Positions 17,673 through 23,724 of a stretch of DNA of 41,251 nt are shown here, piece by piece. Under the pieces are notes generated by a model. The model did not search any database. It was not told the origin of the DNA and was given only the letters and a program-made list of their open reading frames with translations. Within the stretch, counting starts at the first letter, position 1, and every line of letters begins with the position of its first letter. This DNA comes from Acidobacteriota bacterium (GTDB taxonomy: Bacteria; Acidobacteriota; Terriglobia; Terriglobales; Acidobacteriaceae). Location of the stretch: contig QIAB01000065.1 of the NCBI GenBank assembly GCA_003225455.1, forward strand, positions 6,239 to 47,489. The letters run 5' to 3'. A program made the translations under genes and the position numbers.

Positions 17673-19307
17673 CTATGGCAGCTTGAAATTAACTGTGATC
17701 TGGGTCTGGATTTCGACCGGTTCGCCGTTCAGGAAGTAGGGTTTGTATTTCCATTGGCGCACGGCATCGATGGCTGCGCGTCCAAGGATAGCGTCTCCGC
17801 TGAGCTGTTTCACGCTGCTGATTCGGCCGTCTTTCGTGATGCTGGCCATGAGCTGCACCGTTCCTTCAAGGCGCATCTGCTTTGCTGACGAAGGATAGAC
17901 AGGCTGAACGCGCTTGATGAGCATTCCCTGTGATACGCCCTGCGAAACTTTCAGTGTTTGTGTTTCTCGAACAGGGTTGGGAACATGAACCGGAGTGTTC
18001 ACGATGCTGGCGACAGTGTTGGTGTCCGGAGCTGAAGGAATGCTCGGCGGAACCGGCGGGAGCATGGCCGCCTCACTTTTTGGCGCGGAGAAGTCATCCT
18101 TGACCATGTTCTTCTTGACGATGATCGGCGCGGGTTTGACCTGTGTGGCTTCTTTGCTGGCTGGAGGCGTCTTTACAACCACCGGCGTAGGCTTTGCAGG
18201 TGCTGGCTTGGCATTCGGCTCGAGGGAGATTTCTTCGGGCTGCTGCGCCGGCGCCTCCCTCGTCTGTTGAGCGGGAGTTGAAGCAGCAGGCTGCTGCTCC
18301 GGCATTGCGCGCGCGGGAGGCGTTACAACGACAGTGGGTTGGGACGGCACAGACTCTTTTTGGATCGCAACTGGGTTGTCACCCGCGTGCATCTTGGTCC
18401 AGCCGAAGTATCCAGCGATGACGAGTACTGCCGCGATCAGAATGAAGACAAATTTCTTGGCCGCGCCTCCGGCACTGGATGGCTCGTAGGCTTCCGGACT
18501 TGTGAGAGAGGAGAATACCGGCGGTTCTATGCGCGCTGGTGCAGGCGCCGATTTGGCTTCAAATGGAACGATCTCCGGATCCGCAACTTCTTTTGCAGGT
18601 GCTGCAGCAGCCGCAGCTCTAGTAACAGATAGCGGCACGCTCGACTTTGAAACTGGTTCCCAGGGAAACTCTTTTGCGGCTATGCTCAACGGTGCTGGCG
18701 TCGCCGGAGCAACTGGAACCTTTGGCATATATTCAAGCAGAGTCGCTTCCGCCGCATCAGGCTTTACATCCAGTTCCGCTTCTAATTCAAAAGCCGAGGC
18801 GCTCGCCACTGGAACAGGAGCTTGGGGTGGCTGCACAGGAATTGTCGCGGTAGACGACGACTGCACGGTGCTGGATTCTGCAAGTCGTGCCGCCGGATCA
18901 GACGCGGCGGGAATAGGCTTGGTCGCCTCCGCCTTCCGCAGTAATCCGCGGGCAACGCGCAGCGTGCCTTTTGACTGCTCGATGTTAATCGGCTTGGTGA
19001 GAACCAGGTTGGCGCCGATGCGAAACGCTTTGGCAACGCCGTCCTGCCCTTCGACTACGGCAACGGAGAGAGAGCTCGAACTTGAGGCAGAATTGCGGGC
19101 GCTCTTGAACAGCAAAGTCGCGTTCTGCTCGTTCTCGCAGTCGACGACGATTGCGTCGAAGTGCTGTGCCATCAGTTTCTTGACGGTAGCGAATGGCTCA
19201 TTGCAGCGCTCAACCTGAAATTCCAATTCACTCAGGACTTGCGTCACTACACGCGCAGTCTTGTCGTCCGGGCAGAATAAGAGTGCCTGATAATGCATAA
19301 TGGCCAT
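17673..19307 (-). CDS. receiver-like domain - TM - TonB C-terminal domain fusion protein
   Basis: About 544 aa from ATG 19307 (MAIMHYQALLF); Met at 19298 or the ORF start at 19334 are alternatives. In 553-aa numbering, residues 14-135 resemble a CheY receiver: acidic pair in CPDDKT, Asp65 in DAIVVDCEN at the phospho-site, Lys114 in LVLTKPIN. The usual Thr/Ser strand reads VAVVEG. Residues about 140-290 are Ala/Pro-rich linker, followed by one membrane helix at 295-312 (KFVFILIAAVLVIAGYFGW). A Pro/Gln-rich periplasmic linker leads to the TonB C-terminal domain at about 458-553 (IKRVQPVYPSSAKQMRLEGTVQLMASI…AIDAVRQWKYKPYFLNGEPV). TonB passes proton-motive-force energy to outer-membrane receptors; no ExbB/ExbD is nearby. 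The fusion suggests signal-tuned energy transduction or envelope contact. Confidence 0.8.
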   Translation of the reverse strand: MAIMHYQALLFCPDDKTARVVTQVLSELEFQVERCNEPFATVKKLMAQHFDAIVVDCENEQNATLLFKSARNSASSSSSLSVAVVEGQDGVAKAFRIGANLVLTKPINIEQSKGTLRVARGLLRKAEATKPIPAASDPAARLAESSTVQSSSTATIPVQPPQAPVPVASASAFELEAELDVKPDAAEATLLEYMPKVPVAPATPAPLSIAAKEFPWEPVSKSSVPLSVTRAAAAAAPAKEVADPEIVPFEAKSAPAPARIEPPVFSSLTSPEAYEPSSAGGAAKKFVFILIAAVLVIAGYFGWTKMHAGDNPVAIQKESVPSQPTVVVTPPARAMPEQQPAASTPAQQTREAPAQQPEEISLEPNAKPAPAKPTPVVVKTPPASKEATQVKPAPIIVKKNMVKDDFSAPKSEAAMLPPVPPSIPSAPDTNTVASIVNTPVHVPNPVRETQTLKVSQGVSQGMLIKRVQPVYPSSAKQMRLEGTVQLMASITKDGRISSVKQLSGDAILGRAAIDAVRQWKYKPYFLNGEPVEIQTQITVNFKLP

Positions 19308-19402
19308 CGTAGGTATGCTCGTCAGCAGCAGCAAGTTACGTAGGTAATTCTGCGTTACACGAAGAAGGGTGCTGGCCGGTTTTGTAATAGGCAGAGCATA
19401 AA

Positions 19403-20074
19403 ATGGCAGGCATGCGCCTGCCGTTATGGCTCAAGATCTCATGGACGATTTGGGTGATCGTCTGGATCCCTCTCTACTGGAGGCAATACGGCGCGCAAAA
19501 TTTTCTGTATTTTTGCGATCTGGGAAATTTATTGATTGCCTTTGGCCTCTGGCTGGAAAGCCCTCTGATTTTTTCCTGGCAAGCAACTGGCCTGCTTCTG
19601 TTTCAAACCCTCTTCGCGATTGATCTTACGGGCGCGTTCCTAACCGGCAAACACTGCATCGGGGGCACAGAATTTATGTTCAACCCACATTTGCCGCTCG
19701 CGCTGCGCCTGCTCAGTTTGTTTCATGTGGTCACGCCACCACTGCTGCTTTTGGCCATTTGGCGCCTGGGTTATGACAAACGTGGATGGAAGCTCCAGAC
19801 GCTCACAACCTGGATGGTCGTCCCGATCAATTATTTCTGGCGGCCAGAGGAGGACGTGAATTGGGCGCGCGGGCTTTTCTTCCACGAGCAGCATGTGATG
19901 CCAGGCTGGAGTTACTTGCTGCTGTATCTGATTGCAGTGCCGGCGCTGATCTACTGGCCGACGCATTTTCTAATCTTGGCCAGGCTCGCCAGACCGCACG
20001 AGCGCGGACGCTCGCGCTTACATCGCAGAATTGCATTAACGGAACGTCTAATCTCGGGGCCAGGTTTGATCTGA
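19403..20074 (+). CDS. multi-span membrane protein of unknown function
   Basis: 223 aa with about six hydrophobic helices (for example ISWTIWVIVWIPLYW, LLIAFGLWLESPLIF, LLLFQTLFAIDLTGAFLTG, LLSLFHVVTPPLLLLAIW, TWMVVPINYFW, YLLLYLIAVPALIYW). Histidines and charged residues in the loops (GKHCIGGTEFMFNPHLP; FFHEQHVMPGW) could bind metal or substrate, but no family is recognised. ATG 19403 is chosen; Met4 (19412) also fits. The last 27 residues after LARPHERGRSRLHRR are encoded by a dispersed repeat and are probably a non-native tail, so the original stop has been displaced. Confidence 0.65.
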   Translation: MAGMRLPLWLKISWTIWVIVWIPLYWRQYGAQNFLYFCDLGNLLIAFGLWLESPLIFSWQATGLLLFQTLFAIDLTGAFLTGKHCIGGTEFMFNPHLPLALRLLSLFHVVTPPLLLLAIWRLGYDKRGWKLQTLTTWMVVPINYFWRPEEDVNWARGLFFHEQHVMPGWSYLLLYLIAVPALIYWPTHFLILARLARPHERGRSRLHRRIALTERLISGPGLI

Positions 20075-20150: not shown

Positions 20151-22247
20151 TTACTGGATTTGCGCCAGAGCTCGTTTTGTTGCTTCAAGCAGGGCATCCG
20201 GGCCCACTGGCTTGCCGGTTGCGTTTTCCATCCATAGGTCGGGTGTTACGTCGCCCATCTTGGCCATGCGTTCGAACTCAGGGCCGATTGTGCCCGCTTT
20301 CTTCATCTGCTGTTCGATTTGCGCCGCGATCATATGGCCAATGGAGTAATCCGGCAAATAGAGAAAAGAATCGATCATGTGCGAATACACGGCCAGCAGC
20401 ACGACATCTTTCTGATTGAAGACTGGAGCGTAGTAGCGGTTCCAAATATCTTTTGCGATTTGAAGTGTCGCCGCGTTAAGCTGGCTGGGCGTGGCTTGCG
20501 GATGGTCGTACATCCAGTGCCAGACGGCGGTATCGACCAGACCGACGCCTGCAATTTCGTAAGTAGTCCAGAAGTCGTTCAGCGTCATCTCCGCCTCGCT
20601 TCTTGCGTCAGGCGCGGGCAGATCGAGCAATTGAAGGTCCCGGGCCTGAAAAACAAACGCCAGCGCTTCCGTGAATGCTGTATTGGGCACGCCTTTCAGC
20701 AGAGTGTGATCCACGTCATTTAATGAGAACGTCTGCTCGACGTTGTGCCCCATCTCGTGCACAGCGATGTTGAAGCCTTTGTAATTCATTCCTGGTTTTT
20801 CGACGCGGGTGCGAAGGTGGGCTTTTTCGGCGCGCATTTCGGCGCCCATGGCGTGACCGGAGCCGCGGGCAGGCTCGATGACAATATGCTGCGCCACATA
20901 CTGTGCGCGCTCAGGCGAGAAGCCGAGCTTCATCAGGAGATTGGGGATGTCTTTCTGATATGCCTCAGCTGCCGGATATTTTTTTGCGACGATGGCATCG
21001 AGCTCACTCTCGCTGTATTTGCTACTGGGGCGAAACCCGTTGTACCAGATATCAAACGGCTCCAGCGGACGCCCAAGGCGAGCTTGAATTACCCTTGCGA
21101 TTTGCGGAACCAGCGGCGAAGTCAGCACTTGTTCGAGCATTGCTTTCACCCGCACTTCGGGGATCTCGCGATCTTCATCAAAGCGGCGAGTGATCAGAGT
21201 TGGCGCCGTGGGAGAATACGGATCGGCCCTTTTTGAGGCTAAGAAATCTTTTTGCAGGATTGCGTAACGGGTATCAGGCTCGCGCGCGTCGGTGACATTC
21301 GCGTTGGCAGGCGAAGAGAGATCCGAGTCAGTTACCGCCGCCGGCTTCACTTCGTTTGTAAATGGGTTCCAATCGACTCCCGGATTGTTGACGACAACCG
21401 CCGGAATTGTCTGGGTGACGATTCGTTCCATGACTTGCTGAATCATGCGCTGCCTGGCGAGACCGTTCTGTTTGGCGGCATAATCGGCTTTGATCTCGTC
21501 GCGAAGGTTCCAGTGGCTCAGCAGTCGCAGCTTCGGGGGAAAGAGTCGTTGGCCATCTTGATCGACCAAGTGATGCATCCAGATGTTGTAATCGGCGACA
21601 TAGCGCGCGGCAGCCGCCTCGGCCTGGCCAACGGCCAGATTCACATCCGCGGGAATGCGCTTGGAAAATCGCTGAGCGAGCCGTGATTCAGCCCATTGAC
21701 GTCGTGTCCAGCCCGGGCCTGCCTTCAGGCGCTCATCGAGAGTTGTCAGCGGAAAATTCAGCAGCACTACAAACGCGAGCTTGTTTTGAAAGAAATCGTC
21801 GATGATATGCGCCGAGGGATCGTAGCCGCCGAACATTTCATCGAATGGGAGCACCGGGCCGAGATCGAGATCTATTTGCTGGCGGAATTCGCGGCTGATT
21901 TCGTGCATGTGTCCGCCGAGCTGCTCGAGAAGATGCTCGAACCGGTTAAACAACGTGTCGAGCGCCGCTTGATCGCCGGCGAAATTTGTGCGGACGAACT
22001 CCTCGAATGCGACGGCATCACCGTCTTCCGGCCGCCAGAACTCGGATACTTGGCGCAGGCCACGCTTGAGGCGGTCACGTTGAGCCTCACCGTATTTCGT
22101 GATTAGTTCCCGTTCGAGCTTCGCGCTGGACGCGGTCATCCAGGAGAGTTGCGGGCTCGTAGCAGTCGAGTTAGGCATGGAGTTCTCCTGCGCGTTGACT
22201 GAGACTAAGGCGATGGTCATTAAAACCCAGGCACATATCAGGCGCAT
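20151..22247 (-). CDS. secreted zinc metallopeptidase, gluzincin type (HEMGH)
   Basis: 698 aa from ATG 22247, with AAGGA 7 nt upstream; the longer frame to 22343 is not supported. Residues 1-19 (MRLICAWVLMTIALVSVNA) are a signal peptide. The body is helical. The zinc site is HEMGH at His497-Glu498-His501 in FNIAVHEMGHNVEQTF, with a third ligand Glu527 in NTAFTEALAF. The 26-residue spacing fits M2/M3-like (thimet oligopeptidase) gluzincins. I cannot assign a known MEROPS family by eye. Periplasmic protein or peptide hydrolysis is likely. It is 55 nt downstream of lpdA on the same strand and may be read through from the PDH operon; no functional link is obvious. Confidence 0.75.
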   Translation of the reverse strand: MRLICAWVLMTIALVSVNAQENSMPNSTATSPQLSWMTASSAKLERELITKYGEAQRDRLKRGLRQVSEFWRPEDGDAVAFEEFVRTNFAGDQAALDTLFNRFEHLLEQLGGHMHEISREFRQQIDLDLGPVLPFDEMFGGYDPSAHIIDDFFQNKLAFVVLLNFPLTTLDERLKAGPGWTRRQWAESRLAQRFSKRIPADVNLAVGQAEAAAARYVADYNIWMHHLVDQDGQRLFPPKLRLLSHWNLRDEIKADYAAKQNGLARQRMIQQVMERIVTQTIPAVVVNNPGVDWNPFTNEVKPAAVTDSDLSSPANANVTDAREPDTRYAILQKDFLASKRADPYSPTAPTLITRRFDEDREIPEVRVKAMLEQVLTSPLVPQIARVIQARLGRPLEPFDIWYNGFRPSSKYSESELDAIVAKKYPAAEAYQKDIPNLLMKLGFSPERAQYVAQHIVIEPARGSGHAMGAEMRAEKAHLRTRVEKPGMNYKGFNIAVHEMGHNVEQTFSLNDVDHTLLKGVPNTAFTEALAFVFQARDLQLLDLPAPDARSEAEMTLNDFWTTYEIAGVGLVDTAVWHWMYDHPQATPSQLNAATLQIAKDIWNRYYAPVFNQKDVVLLAVYSHMIDSFLYLPDYSIGHMIAAQIEQQMKKAGTIGPEFERMAKMGDVTPDLWMENATGKPVGPDALLEATKRALAQIQ

Positions 22248-22302
22248 GGGATTTTCCTTGAAAGTCGGCTTCGTGCGGCTTCCTTCGCGGAGCAATAAAG
22301 GG

Positions 22303-23724
22303 CTATGCCCGCTTTGGCCGATAAATGTCGGTGCTGGTTCCAAAAAATACTTCTGCTGATTCCATGAGCGTCTCCGAAAGCGTCGGATGCGGATGAATAG
22401 TTAGCGCGAGATCTTTCGCCAGCGCCCCCATTTCGATTGCAAGGACGCCCTCCGAAATCAGTTCTCCTGCGCCAGCGCCGACAATCCCTACACCCAGGAT
22501 GCGCTCGCTGTGCGGATCGAGAATAAGCTTGGTCATTCCTTCCGTGCGGTCGAGAGTCATGGCGCGTCCAGAGGCCGCCCATGGAAATTTCGCAACCTTG
22601 ATCTCGCGATTTTGTTTTTGCGCGTCCGTCTCAGTCAGGCCGCACCAGGCAATTTCCGGATCGGTGAACACAACGGCCGGAATCGCATTCGGTTCAAACG
22701 CGACTTTATGGCCGGCGATAGCTTCGACAGCAGTGCGCCCTTCATGCGTAGCCTTGTGCGCCAGCATCGGCTCGCCGGTCACGTCACCGATGGCGTAAAT
22801 CAGGGGATCATCCGTCTGCAGTTGCTTATTCACCTGAATAAATCCGCGCTGGCTGACCTGTATCCGAGTTTTTTCGAGGCCGGGAATCTCGGAATTCGGC
22901 TTGCGTCCCACAGAGACGAGAACCTTGTCGAAAATTTTTTCTTGCTGTTTAACCTCAGAGCCATCGAAGGTGACGCGGATTCCTCCATCCTCGTCTTTCA
23001 TCGACGCAACGGTCGTGTTCAAGAGAATCGAATCGAAAATCTTTTCGATGCGTTTGTGTAAAGGAAGCACGAGATCGCGGTCGGCGCCGGGAAGCAGTCC
23101 GGGCAGCATCTCAACCACCGACACTTTGCTGCCGAGGGCTGCATAAACTGTGCCCAGTTCCAGACCGATGTAGCCGCCGCCAATCACCAGCATAGTCTCT
23201 GGAACTTCTGCTAAATCCAGTGCGGAAGTGGAATCCAGCACGCGCGGGGAATCCAGCTTTAAAGCAGGAATAATCGCGGGACGCGATCCCGTAGCCACAA
23301 TGATGCGGTCGAACGAAAGAGTTTGATCGCCGCCGTTTGCCTTTGTTACTCGCAGCGTTGTGGAATTTTCAAATGCAGCGCGGCCTTGAACATATTGCAC
23401 TTTACGCTGTTTCGAGAGAACCCCCAGACCACCAGTCAGTTTCTTAACCACGTCTTCTTTCCAGGAACGCAGCCGGGCCAAATCGATTCTCGGATTTTCA
23501 AACCCGATTCCCCAATTTCTTGCATGCTGAGATTCGCCGATCAGCTTGGCGACGTGCAACAACGCTTTCGACGGAATGCAGCCTCGGTACAGGCAAACGC
23601 CGCCCGGATTCAACTCCGGGTCGATGAGCGTAACCTTCATTCCCAGGTCGGCAGCGAGAAACGCGGCAGCGTAGCCTCCTGGCCCGGCGCCTACAACGGC
23701 AATCTGCAAGTTAGTATCAGCCAT
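22303..23724 (-). CDS. lpdA: dihydrolipoyl dehydrogenase (E3)
   Basis: 473 aa, normal length. E3 reoxidises dihydrolipoyl groups of the pyruvate dehydrogenase E2 with FAD and NAD+. Visible: N-terminal FAD motif VGAGPGGY at 11-18, the redox-active disulfide Cys44/Cys49 in GGVCLYRGCIPSK, the NAD-binding GGGYIGLELG segment near 186-195, a GDV-type FAD site (YAIGDVTGEPMLAHKATHEG) and the C-terminal dimer-interface active-site motif HPHPTLSETLMES. ATG 23724 begins MADTNLQIAVVGAG. It is the last gene of aceE-aceF-lpdA, 105 nt after aceF, with an inverted repeat in that gap. Confidence 0.95.
   Translation of the reverse strand: MADTNLQIAVVGAGPGGYAAAFLAADLGMKVTLIDPELNPGGVCLYRGCIPSKALLHVAKLIGESQHARNWGIGFENPRIDLARLRSWKEDVVKKLTGGLGVLSKQRKVQYVQGRAAFENSTTLRVTKANGGDQTLSFDRIIVATGSRPAIIPALKLDSPRVLDSTSALDLAEVPETMLVIGGGYIGLELGTVYAALGSKVSVVEMLPGLLPGADRDLVLPLHKRIEKIFDSILLNTTVASMKDEDGGIRVTFDGSEVKQQEKIFDKVLVSVGRKPNSEIPGLEKTRIQVSQRGFIQVNKQLQTDDPLIYAIGDVTGEPMLAHKATHEGRTAVEAIAGHKVAFEPNAIPAVVFTDPEIAWCGLTETDAQKQNREIKVAKFPWAASGRAMTLDRTEGMTKLILDPHSERILGVGIVGAGAGELISEGVLAIEMGALAKDLALTIHPHPTLSETLMESAEVFFGTSTDIYRPKRA

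Follow-up and report, generated by a model that had tools for sequence, protein, structure and literature searches.

A receiver-like domain joined through one membrane helix to a TonB C-terminal domain in Acidobacteriota, a candidate trans-envelope adaptor

The C-terminal domain of TonB normally touches outer-membrane transporters, and textbooks present TonB as a motor arm that hardly extends into the cell interior. FrzS of Myxococcus xanthus carries an atypical receiver that serves as an interaction module, in a protein that is not membrane-bound and is without a TonB domain, and PilZ is typically a c-di-GMP-binding domain. On the motor side, passages of PMC12215075 describe contacts of E. 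coli TonB Ser16 and His20 with ExbB near the cytoplasmic side and cite His20 as essential, and passages of PMC12204202 describe the SHLS motif of TonB as motor-binding. Pseudo-receivers are defined in passages of Bourret et al. 2025 (PMC12632262) as receiver-like domains without any one of five catalytic residues; the main text of that source mentions neither TonB nor PilZ. According to passages of PMC8316039, PixA of M. xanthus combines PilZ and receiver domains in one protein, but with PilZ first and the receiver second, with phosphorylation residues reported as conserved, and with no TonB part. Among the literature matches listed (open-access, supplements excluded), there was no fusion of a receiver, PilZ or GAF domain to TonB.

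The protein described here, REC-TonB, is encoded in a window of 41,251 nucleotides, the whole stretch of DNA that was analysed, which belongs to contig C158 of an Acidobacteriaceae genome that is 95% complete in 195 contigs (G000). It resembles the TonB energy transducer of E. coli in its TonB C-terminal domain (TonB_C), its single helix and the long Pro-rich linker after that helix, but has approximately 280 residues before the helix instead of a short cytoplasmic tail, a helix without the Ser-x3-His/Gln pattern, and a gene that is not beside exbD. With the pseudo-receivers described in passages of PMC12632262 it shares a receiver fold in which at least one of the five catalytic residues is missing, and it differs from them, as far as those passages go, in keeping Asp and Lys while losing Thr and at least one acid, and in having a membrane helix and TonB_C as its output. 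We lean towards reading REC-TonB as a phosphorylation-independent trans-envelope adaptor or regulator, and not as a classical ExbB/ExbD-driven arm.

The interval 17673-19307, given for this gene by a preceding sequence-only reading, is correct, and the gene lies on the minus strand, running from an ATG at 19307 to a stop at 17673 (544 aa); the plus-strand frame over the same interval holds many stops. An upstream TTG at 19334 would give a 553-aa frame. Orthologue starts align with Met4 of the window protein (window position 19298), so that 541 aa is the likelier length. The architecture claimed by the sequence-only reading (receiver-like domain, linker, one helix, linker, TonB_C) is borne out by Pfam, a family profile and AlphaFold2 models, and is common to 30 other complete orthologues, all from acidobacterial relatives. 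The full-length AlphaFold2 model, built from 26 sequences, is poor (mean pLDDT 55.2, pTM 0.27) and was used solely to place folded and disordered parts in sequence; it predicts receiver, disorder, one helix, disorder and TonB_C fold. A PHROGs search gave one match, of unknown function. The parts of the gene are as follows.

17673..19307, minus strand: complete coding sequence (pseudo-receiver, linker, transmembrane helix, linker, TonB_C), 544 aa from the ATG at 19307 or 541 aa from Met4
18930..19298, minus strand: pseudo-receiver domain, residues 4-126, from Pfam, family profile, AlphaFold2 and fold searches; the most conserved part
18462..18929, minus strand: linker 1, Ala/Pro-rich, residues 127-282, predicted disordered and probably cytoplasmic
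18723..18740, minus strand: motif LLEYMP in linker 1, with [LF]LEx[MI]P in 7 of 31 orthologues
18588..18602, minus strand: motif APAKE in linker 1, with APA[KR]E in 22 of 31 orthologues
18390..18461, minus strand: single membrane helix, residues 283-306 (model residues 280-303), without the Ser-x3-His/Gln pattern
17907..18389, minus strand: linker 2, Pro-rich, residues 307-467, predicted disordered and probably periplasmic
17679..17906, minus strand: TonB C-terminal domain, residues 468-543 (PF03544, E 4.2e-20; TIGR01352, E 1.9e-13; pLDDT approximately 85-90)

Similarity to Response_reg (PF00072), on which the receiver call of the sequence-only reading depended, was found over residues 16-111 at E 3.5e-4, a match that stays below the gathering cut-off (21.2 bits for the whole protein and 25.4 bits for the domain alone, against 30.2), and a PF00072 match at E ≤ 0.01 was obtained for 42 of 47 family members. 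Searched against the PDB, the receiver-family profile matched 101 sequences at E ≤ 0.01 (best E 2.4e-8), and the best 60 of these 101 were almost all receivers. An AlphaFold2 model of residues 4-133 (47 sequences, mean pLDDT 89.5) predicts the expected (beta-alpha)5 receiver fold of five strands and five helices at the N-terminus. Compared by Foldseek, this model had response-regulator or kinase receiver domains in all 50 matches listed (best E 1.4e-6), among them the FrzS receiver (PDB 2i6f), which shares the receiver fold; with VIA, the best match was NtrC1 (1ny5; Z 18.0, rmsd 2.0 over 125 residues), and the 50 matches listed were again all receiver-domain proteins. The family profile, the AlphaFold2 model and the fold search thus rule out that the receiver call is an artefact of a weak score. 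Matches to PF23198 (PDE8A_N) and AmiR_N fall below cut-off for the window protein and were taken as receiver-fold cross-hits.

Catalytic positions were compared over 54 aligned copies, comprising 39 of the window type (window included), 6 tandem second copies, 8 PilZ-linked copies and 1 outlier (L068). The residues that had earlier been named as Asp65 and Lys114 are indeed present, as Asp56 and Lys105 when counted from the ATG; the older numbers fit the frame from the TTG at 19334. The positions concerned are these.

19140..19142, minus strand: Asp56, equivalent of the phospho-acceptor Asp (earlier Asp65), kept in 54 of 54 copies
18993..18995, minus strand: Lys105, equivalent of the catalytic Lys (earlier Lys114), Lys in 52 of 54 copies and Arg in 2 of 54
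19059..19061, minus strand: Ala83 at the catalytic Thr/Ser position, with Ser or Thr in 0 of 54 copies
19266..19274, minus strand: Cys12-Pro13-Asp14, where receivers have the acidic pair; it is ambiguous which two of the three correspond to it

All 54 copies have Ala, Gly or Val at the Thr/Ser site, and none has an aromatic switch residue at K-3. For the acidic pair two mappings were obtained. In the ungapped one (hhalign), the first position is Cys or Ser in 54/54 and the second acidic in 1/54; in the one-gap mapping, from MAFFT with real receivers and from HMMER against NtrC1, the first is acidic in 1/54 and the second, Asp14, is Asp or Glu in 54/54, such that at least one acid is lost under either. 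The sequence-only reading had overlooked these losses. Since Thr/Ser is missing in all 54 copies, the published definition holds under both mappings: judged by its sequence, the window receiver is a pseudo-receiver in the sense given in passages of PMC12632262. From the same residues, the domain is probably unable to be phosphorylated. Asp and Lys, kept almost without exception although a pure docking domain would not need them, may be structural.

The REC-TonB protein is under strong selection. Mean majority-residue conservation across 31 orthologues (window included) reaches 0.88 in the receiver and 0.75 in TonB_C, with 0.56 in the helix region and 0.34-0.36 in the linkers. Against four orthologues the receiver shows a dN of 0.07-0.10 and TonB_C one of 0.17-0.19, in comparisons where dS was saturated, and uncomputable in 3 of 8. 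Residue conservation and low dN together rule out a chance or wrong-frame origin. As the receiver is both the most conserved part and the part with the lower dN, it does have some function.

The best hydrophobic stretch after the receiver falls at the single helix in the 31 orthologues (mean hydropathy 1.50-2.73, against 0.83-1.51 for the next best anywhere in the protein), and N-in topology is inferred from the prediction and from the known side of TonB_C. Linker 2 is 21% Pro, and its last residues, VSQGVSQGMLIK, resemble VSQGVTQGLLIK of the short TonB L002. We sought the motor-contact pattern [ST]xxx[HQN] in a span reaching from six residues ahead of the best hydrophobic stretch to its 16th residue. 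Among 30 distinct short TonB-family proteins from relatives, 23 have it, 19 as SFxxQ; of 42 REC-TonBs, 3 have it, in each case within the polar flank that precedes the helix; inside the hydrophobic part of the helix it was not found in the 42 REC-TonBs examined. PilZ-TonB proteins have it in 2 of 8 cases, likewise in the flank before the helix, and 7 of 31 orthologues, the window protein among them, carry a His at the distal end of the helix. A helix without the motor-contact pattern makes REC-TonB doubtful as an energised TonB. Absence of the pattern does not prove that ExbB coupling is missing: 7 of the 30 short TonBs are without it and those that have it carry Gln or Asn and in no case His, so that a role of the pattern in this lineage is itself only presumed.

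The TonB C-terminal domain is intact. Its PF03544 and TIGR01352 matches lie far above the curated cut-offs, and it is 59% identical to the TonB_C of L002, which sits approximately 1 kb from two exbD genes on contig C37. The genome has four ExbD matches, on contigs C7, C37 (two) and C75, and 12 matches to the receptor plug domain. On the window's own contig C158 neither ExbD nor the receptor plug gave a match at E ≤ 0.001, in keeping with the earlier remark that no ExbD is adjacent, and an operon with exbD or a receptor gene was set aside, no such gene having been found in the window and contig scans.

Elsewhere in the genome, the window protein matched the receiver module at nine further places and TonB_C at 16 further ones (E ≤ 0.001). 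All nine of the other receivers are followed by PilZ, above the Pfam cut-off. These siblings belong to the same receiver family and the same tree as REC-TonB, their receivers being 28-38% identical to that of REC-TonB with the same catalytic residues lost, but they differ in that PilZ comes directly after the receiver and that TonB_C is lacking; the window protein, for its part, had no Pfam match to PilZ. Both RxxxR and [DN]x[SG]xxG, which we take to be the PilZ c-di-GMP motif patterns, are present in 38 of 43 PilZ siblings. One REC-PilZ gene of the genome (L014:1043-1840) has a co-oriented gene for a single-pass TonB_C protein (L014:2822-3688) approximately 1 kb away.

At the 16 other places, too, TonB_C is in part joined to other domains. 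A Pfam scan of 13 of these 16 proteins (L020, L021 and L024 lay outside the scan) gave GAF in two, PilZ in one, a YfiR-like domain in one and no other domain above cut-off in nine, one of these nine (L006) being cut by a contig end. The GAF proteins (L005:148-1794 and L007:1-1803) hold GAF, one helix and TonB_C in a single protein, and L019:641-1519 joins a YfiR/HmsC-like domain (DUF4154) to TonB_C. PilZ, one helix and TonB_C are likewise found in a single protein at L018:1091-2098, with relatives at L154-L158, L160 and L161. Frames of this PilZ type were found in 8 of 61 genomes searched, with both c-di-GMP motif patterns in seven (three of the BLAST matches cross a stop), and 7 of the 8 genomes (all but G011) also carry REC-TonB. 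Because these seven genomes are all close relatives, the joint occurrence of the two genes may reflect common descent.

A receiver tree was built from 90 distinct rows (at least 115 residues, no X, E < 1e-8) drawn from 152 loci, with 39 rows TonB-linked, 41 PilZ-linked and 10 without either. Eight of the ten unlinked rows are incomplete members of the window type, truncated at a contig end or broken at masked letters; the other two are L008, a cut copy of the PilZ sibling L014, and L144, in which a frame break is followed by a TonB_C frame. Together with nine fragments, the 39 TonB-linked rows make up a single group of 48 that is nested among the PilZ-linked ones. Tree support for the branch of this group is weak (95/22); the TonB version likely arose by a single domain swap from the PilZ-linked family. 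A third REC-TonB branch lies elsewhere in the genome, at L139:1798-3903 and at L144:638-2008 with L144:139-801, the latter with a frame break before TonB_C.

At six distinct sites a second, diverged REC-TonB gene, absent from the window, stands directly upstream of the orthologue, three of the sites being seen in two loci each. Such adjacency suggests that the two genes act together. The second genes are the following.

L058:6876-8393, tandem second REC-TonB gene
L063:6482-8233, tandem second REC-TonB gene
L065:8924-10369, tandem second REC-TonB gene
L069:3369-4880, tandem second REC-TonB gene
L073:2691-4202, tandem second REC-TonB gene
L093:4989-6557, tandem second REC-TonB gene

In the window, REC-TonB is followed downstream by uvrB and preceded upstream by a divergent gene for a 223-aa protein, by one for a 730-aa protein that belongs to no known family, and by lpd, aceF and aceE. 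The same side holds aceF/lpd in 6 of 11 loci (10 genomes) and uvrB in 4 of 11; this conservation of pyruvate dehydrogenase genes and uvrB says little on function, and the neighbourhood was set aside as a functional clue. The 223-aa protein (19403-20074, plus strand) has no family match and is also found near REC-TonB in four other loci, and the 730-aa protein (20151-22343, minus strand) has no Pfam or NCBIfam match above cut-off, is 67-73% identical in two other loci and, read from its TTG, overlaps the end of lpd. Other genomes have an MscS-like channel between lpd and REC-TonB, at L058:4919-6823 and L061:11213-13066 (called by Pfam) and at L059:3514-5229 and L065:12443-14239 (called by BLAST); none was seen at that place in the window. 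Just past REC-TonB in L058, on the opposite strand, is a Ser/Thr protein kinase with PEGA repeats (L058:10847-13291, minus strand; Pfam), with relatives at 42-57% BLAST identity in L063:10537-13134 and L067:2039-4531, both on the minus strand.

There are several possible explanations for what such a protein does. As an adaptor, REC-TonB would be a single-pass inner-membrane TonB-family protein with a degenerate receiver as its cytoplasmic part. The pseudo-receiver would be a docking platform for a cytoplasmic partner, with no phosphorylation needed, and the TonB domain would span the periplasm to an outer-membrane or cell-wall target, tying the partner to that target without classical energisation. 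The likeliest partners would be proteins of the same module, either the second REC-TonB in genomes with a tandem pair or the PilZ-linked siblings. A TonB hand domain here bears a conserved signalling-type domain across the helix, without the motor-contact pattern, hinting at a link between cell interior and outer membrane that bypasses the usual motor contact; if the docking reading is true, cytoplasmic partners could be connected to outer-membrane contact with neither phosphorylation nor the usual motor involved. Against the adaptor stands the observation that in one of the two alignments an acid of the pair, Asp14, appears to be kept as well. One quite unlikely proposal, which overlaps the adaptor reading, is a layer of c-di-GMP control over the outer membrane, in which pseudo-receivers would pair PilZ receptors with REC-TonB and so set a non-motor TonB hold without phosphorylation. 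This idea comes from the triangle of fusions REC-PilZ, REC-TonB and PilZ-TonB, with PilZ itself fused to a transmembrane helix and TonB_C in seven REC-TonB-carrying genomes. Within the receiver family, one module with two outputs among siblings, PilZ or TonB, makes a clean case for studying how pseudo-receivers work.

The sequence-only reading had preferred a phospho-receiver that gates TonB, which is not supported, and had offered an inactive pseudo-receiver used for docking as its alternative; this is the better of the two, with the pseudo-receiver signature found and docking a matter of inference. We regard phospho-gating, in which a histidine kinase would phosphorylate Asp56 and the receiver would toggle TonB, as very improbable: the predicted receiver fold, the invariant Asp56 and the nearly invariant Lys105 speak for it, but the Ser/Thr site and the K-3 aromatic are lost throughout, the acidic pair is lost wholly or partly, no histidine kinase domain was found among the ten window proteins scanned, and the kinase beyond REC-TonB in L058 (related genes lie in L063 and L067) is a Ser/Thr kinase, not one for receivers. 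Unlikely, to a lesser degree, is an energised TonB paralogue, coupled to ExbB/ExbD through a divergent helix to power a transporter, with the pseudo-receiver merely placing or stabilising it. The intact TonB_C, close to that of an exbD-linked short TonB, the ExbD and plug matches in the genome, and the long Pro-rich periplasmic linker all fit this idea; set against it are the contact pattern missing from the hydrophobic part of the helix, the lack of an exbD or plug match on the window's contig, and synteny with pyruvate dehydrogenase genes and uvrB and not with uptake genes. A single-pass layout with a conserved cytoplasmic domain would also fit an outside-in sensor, whose TonB domain would read transporter occupancy and signal to the cytoplasmic pseudo-receiver, by analogy somewhat like FecR-type cell-surface signalling, and other TonB_C proteins of the genome do have GAF or PilZ before the helix. 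However, a helix flanked by long disordered linkers would be poor at passing a conformational signal and no sigma factor was found among the ten window proteins scanned, and we hold such a sensor to be distinctly improbable.

The combination of PF00072 and PF03544 was surveyed in samples of the host's own phylum and in one keyed genome_contigs scan, and the counts are lower bounds, as scoring covered just a fraction of the candidates for many of the genomes. In the family sample, at least 94 of 200 genomes have a receiver of this kind at E ≤ 1e-30, and at least 48 of 200 (49 rows) reach E ≤ 1e-52 by receiver score, a line that was set after the list was seen and that misses tandem copies and diverged REC-TonBs such as that of G004. 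Ten of these 48 genomes were read, giving eight complete REC-TonB genes, one cut by a contig end (G005) and one broken at masked letters (G024); an open frame of at least 409 aa is found for 44 of the 49 rows and a shorter one for 5, the architecture of rows beyond those fetched being presumed. Receiver matches at E ≤ 1e-12 were found in at least 19 of 121 genomes of the class sample, and matches at E ≤ 1e-10 in at least 11 of 199 genomes of the phylum sample, where only four, from the host's own family, fall below 1e-20. The genome_contigs scan, keyed on short peptides of the window protein, returned 36 loci, all with acidobacterial record titles, including Terriglobia, Terriglobales, Acidobacteriaceae, Candidatus Sulfotelmatobacter and others.
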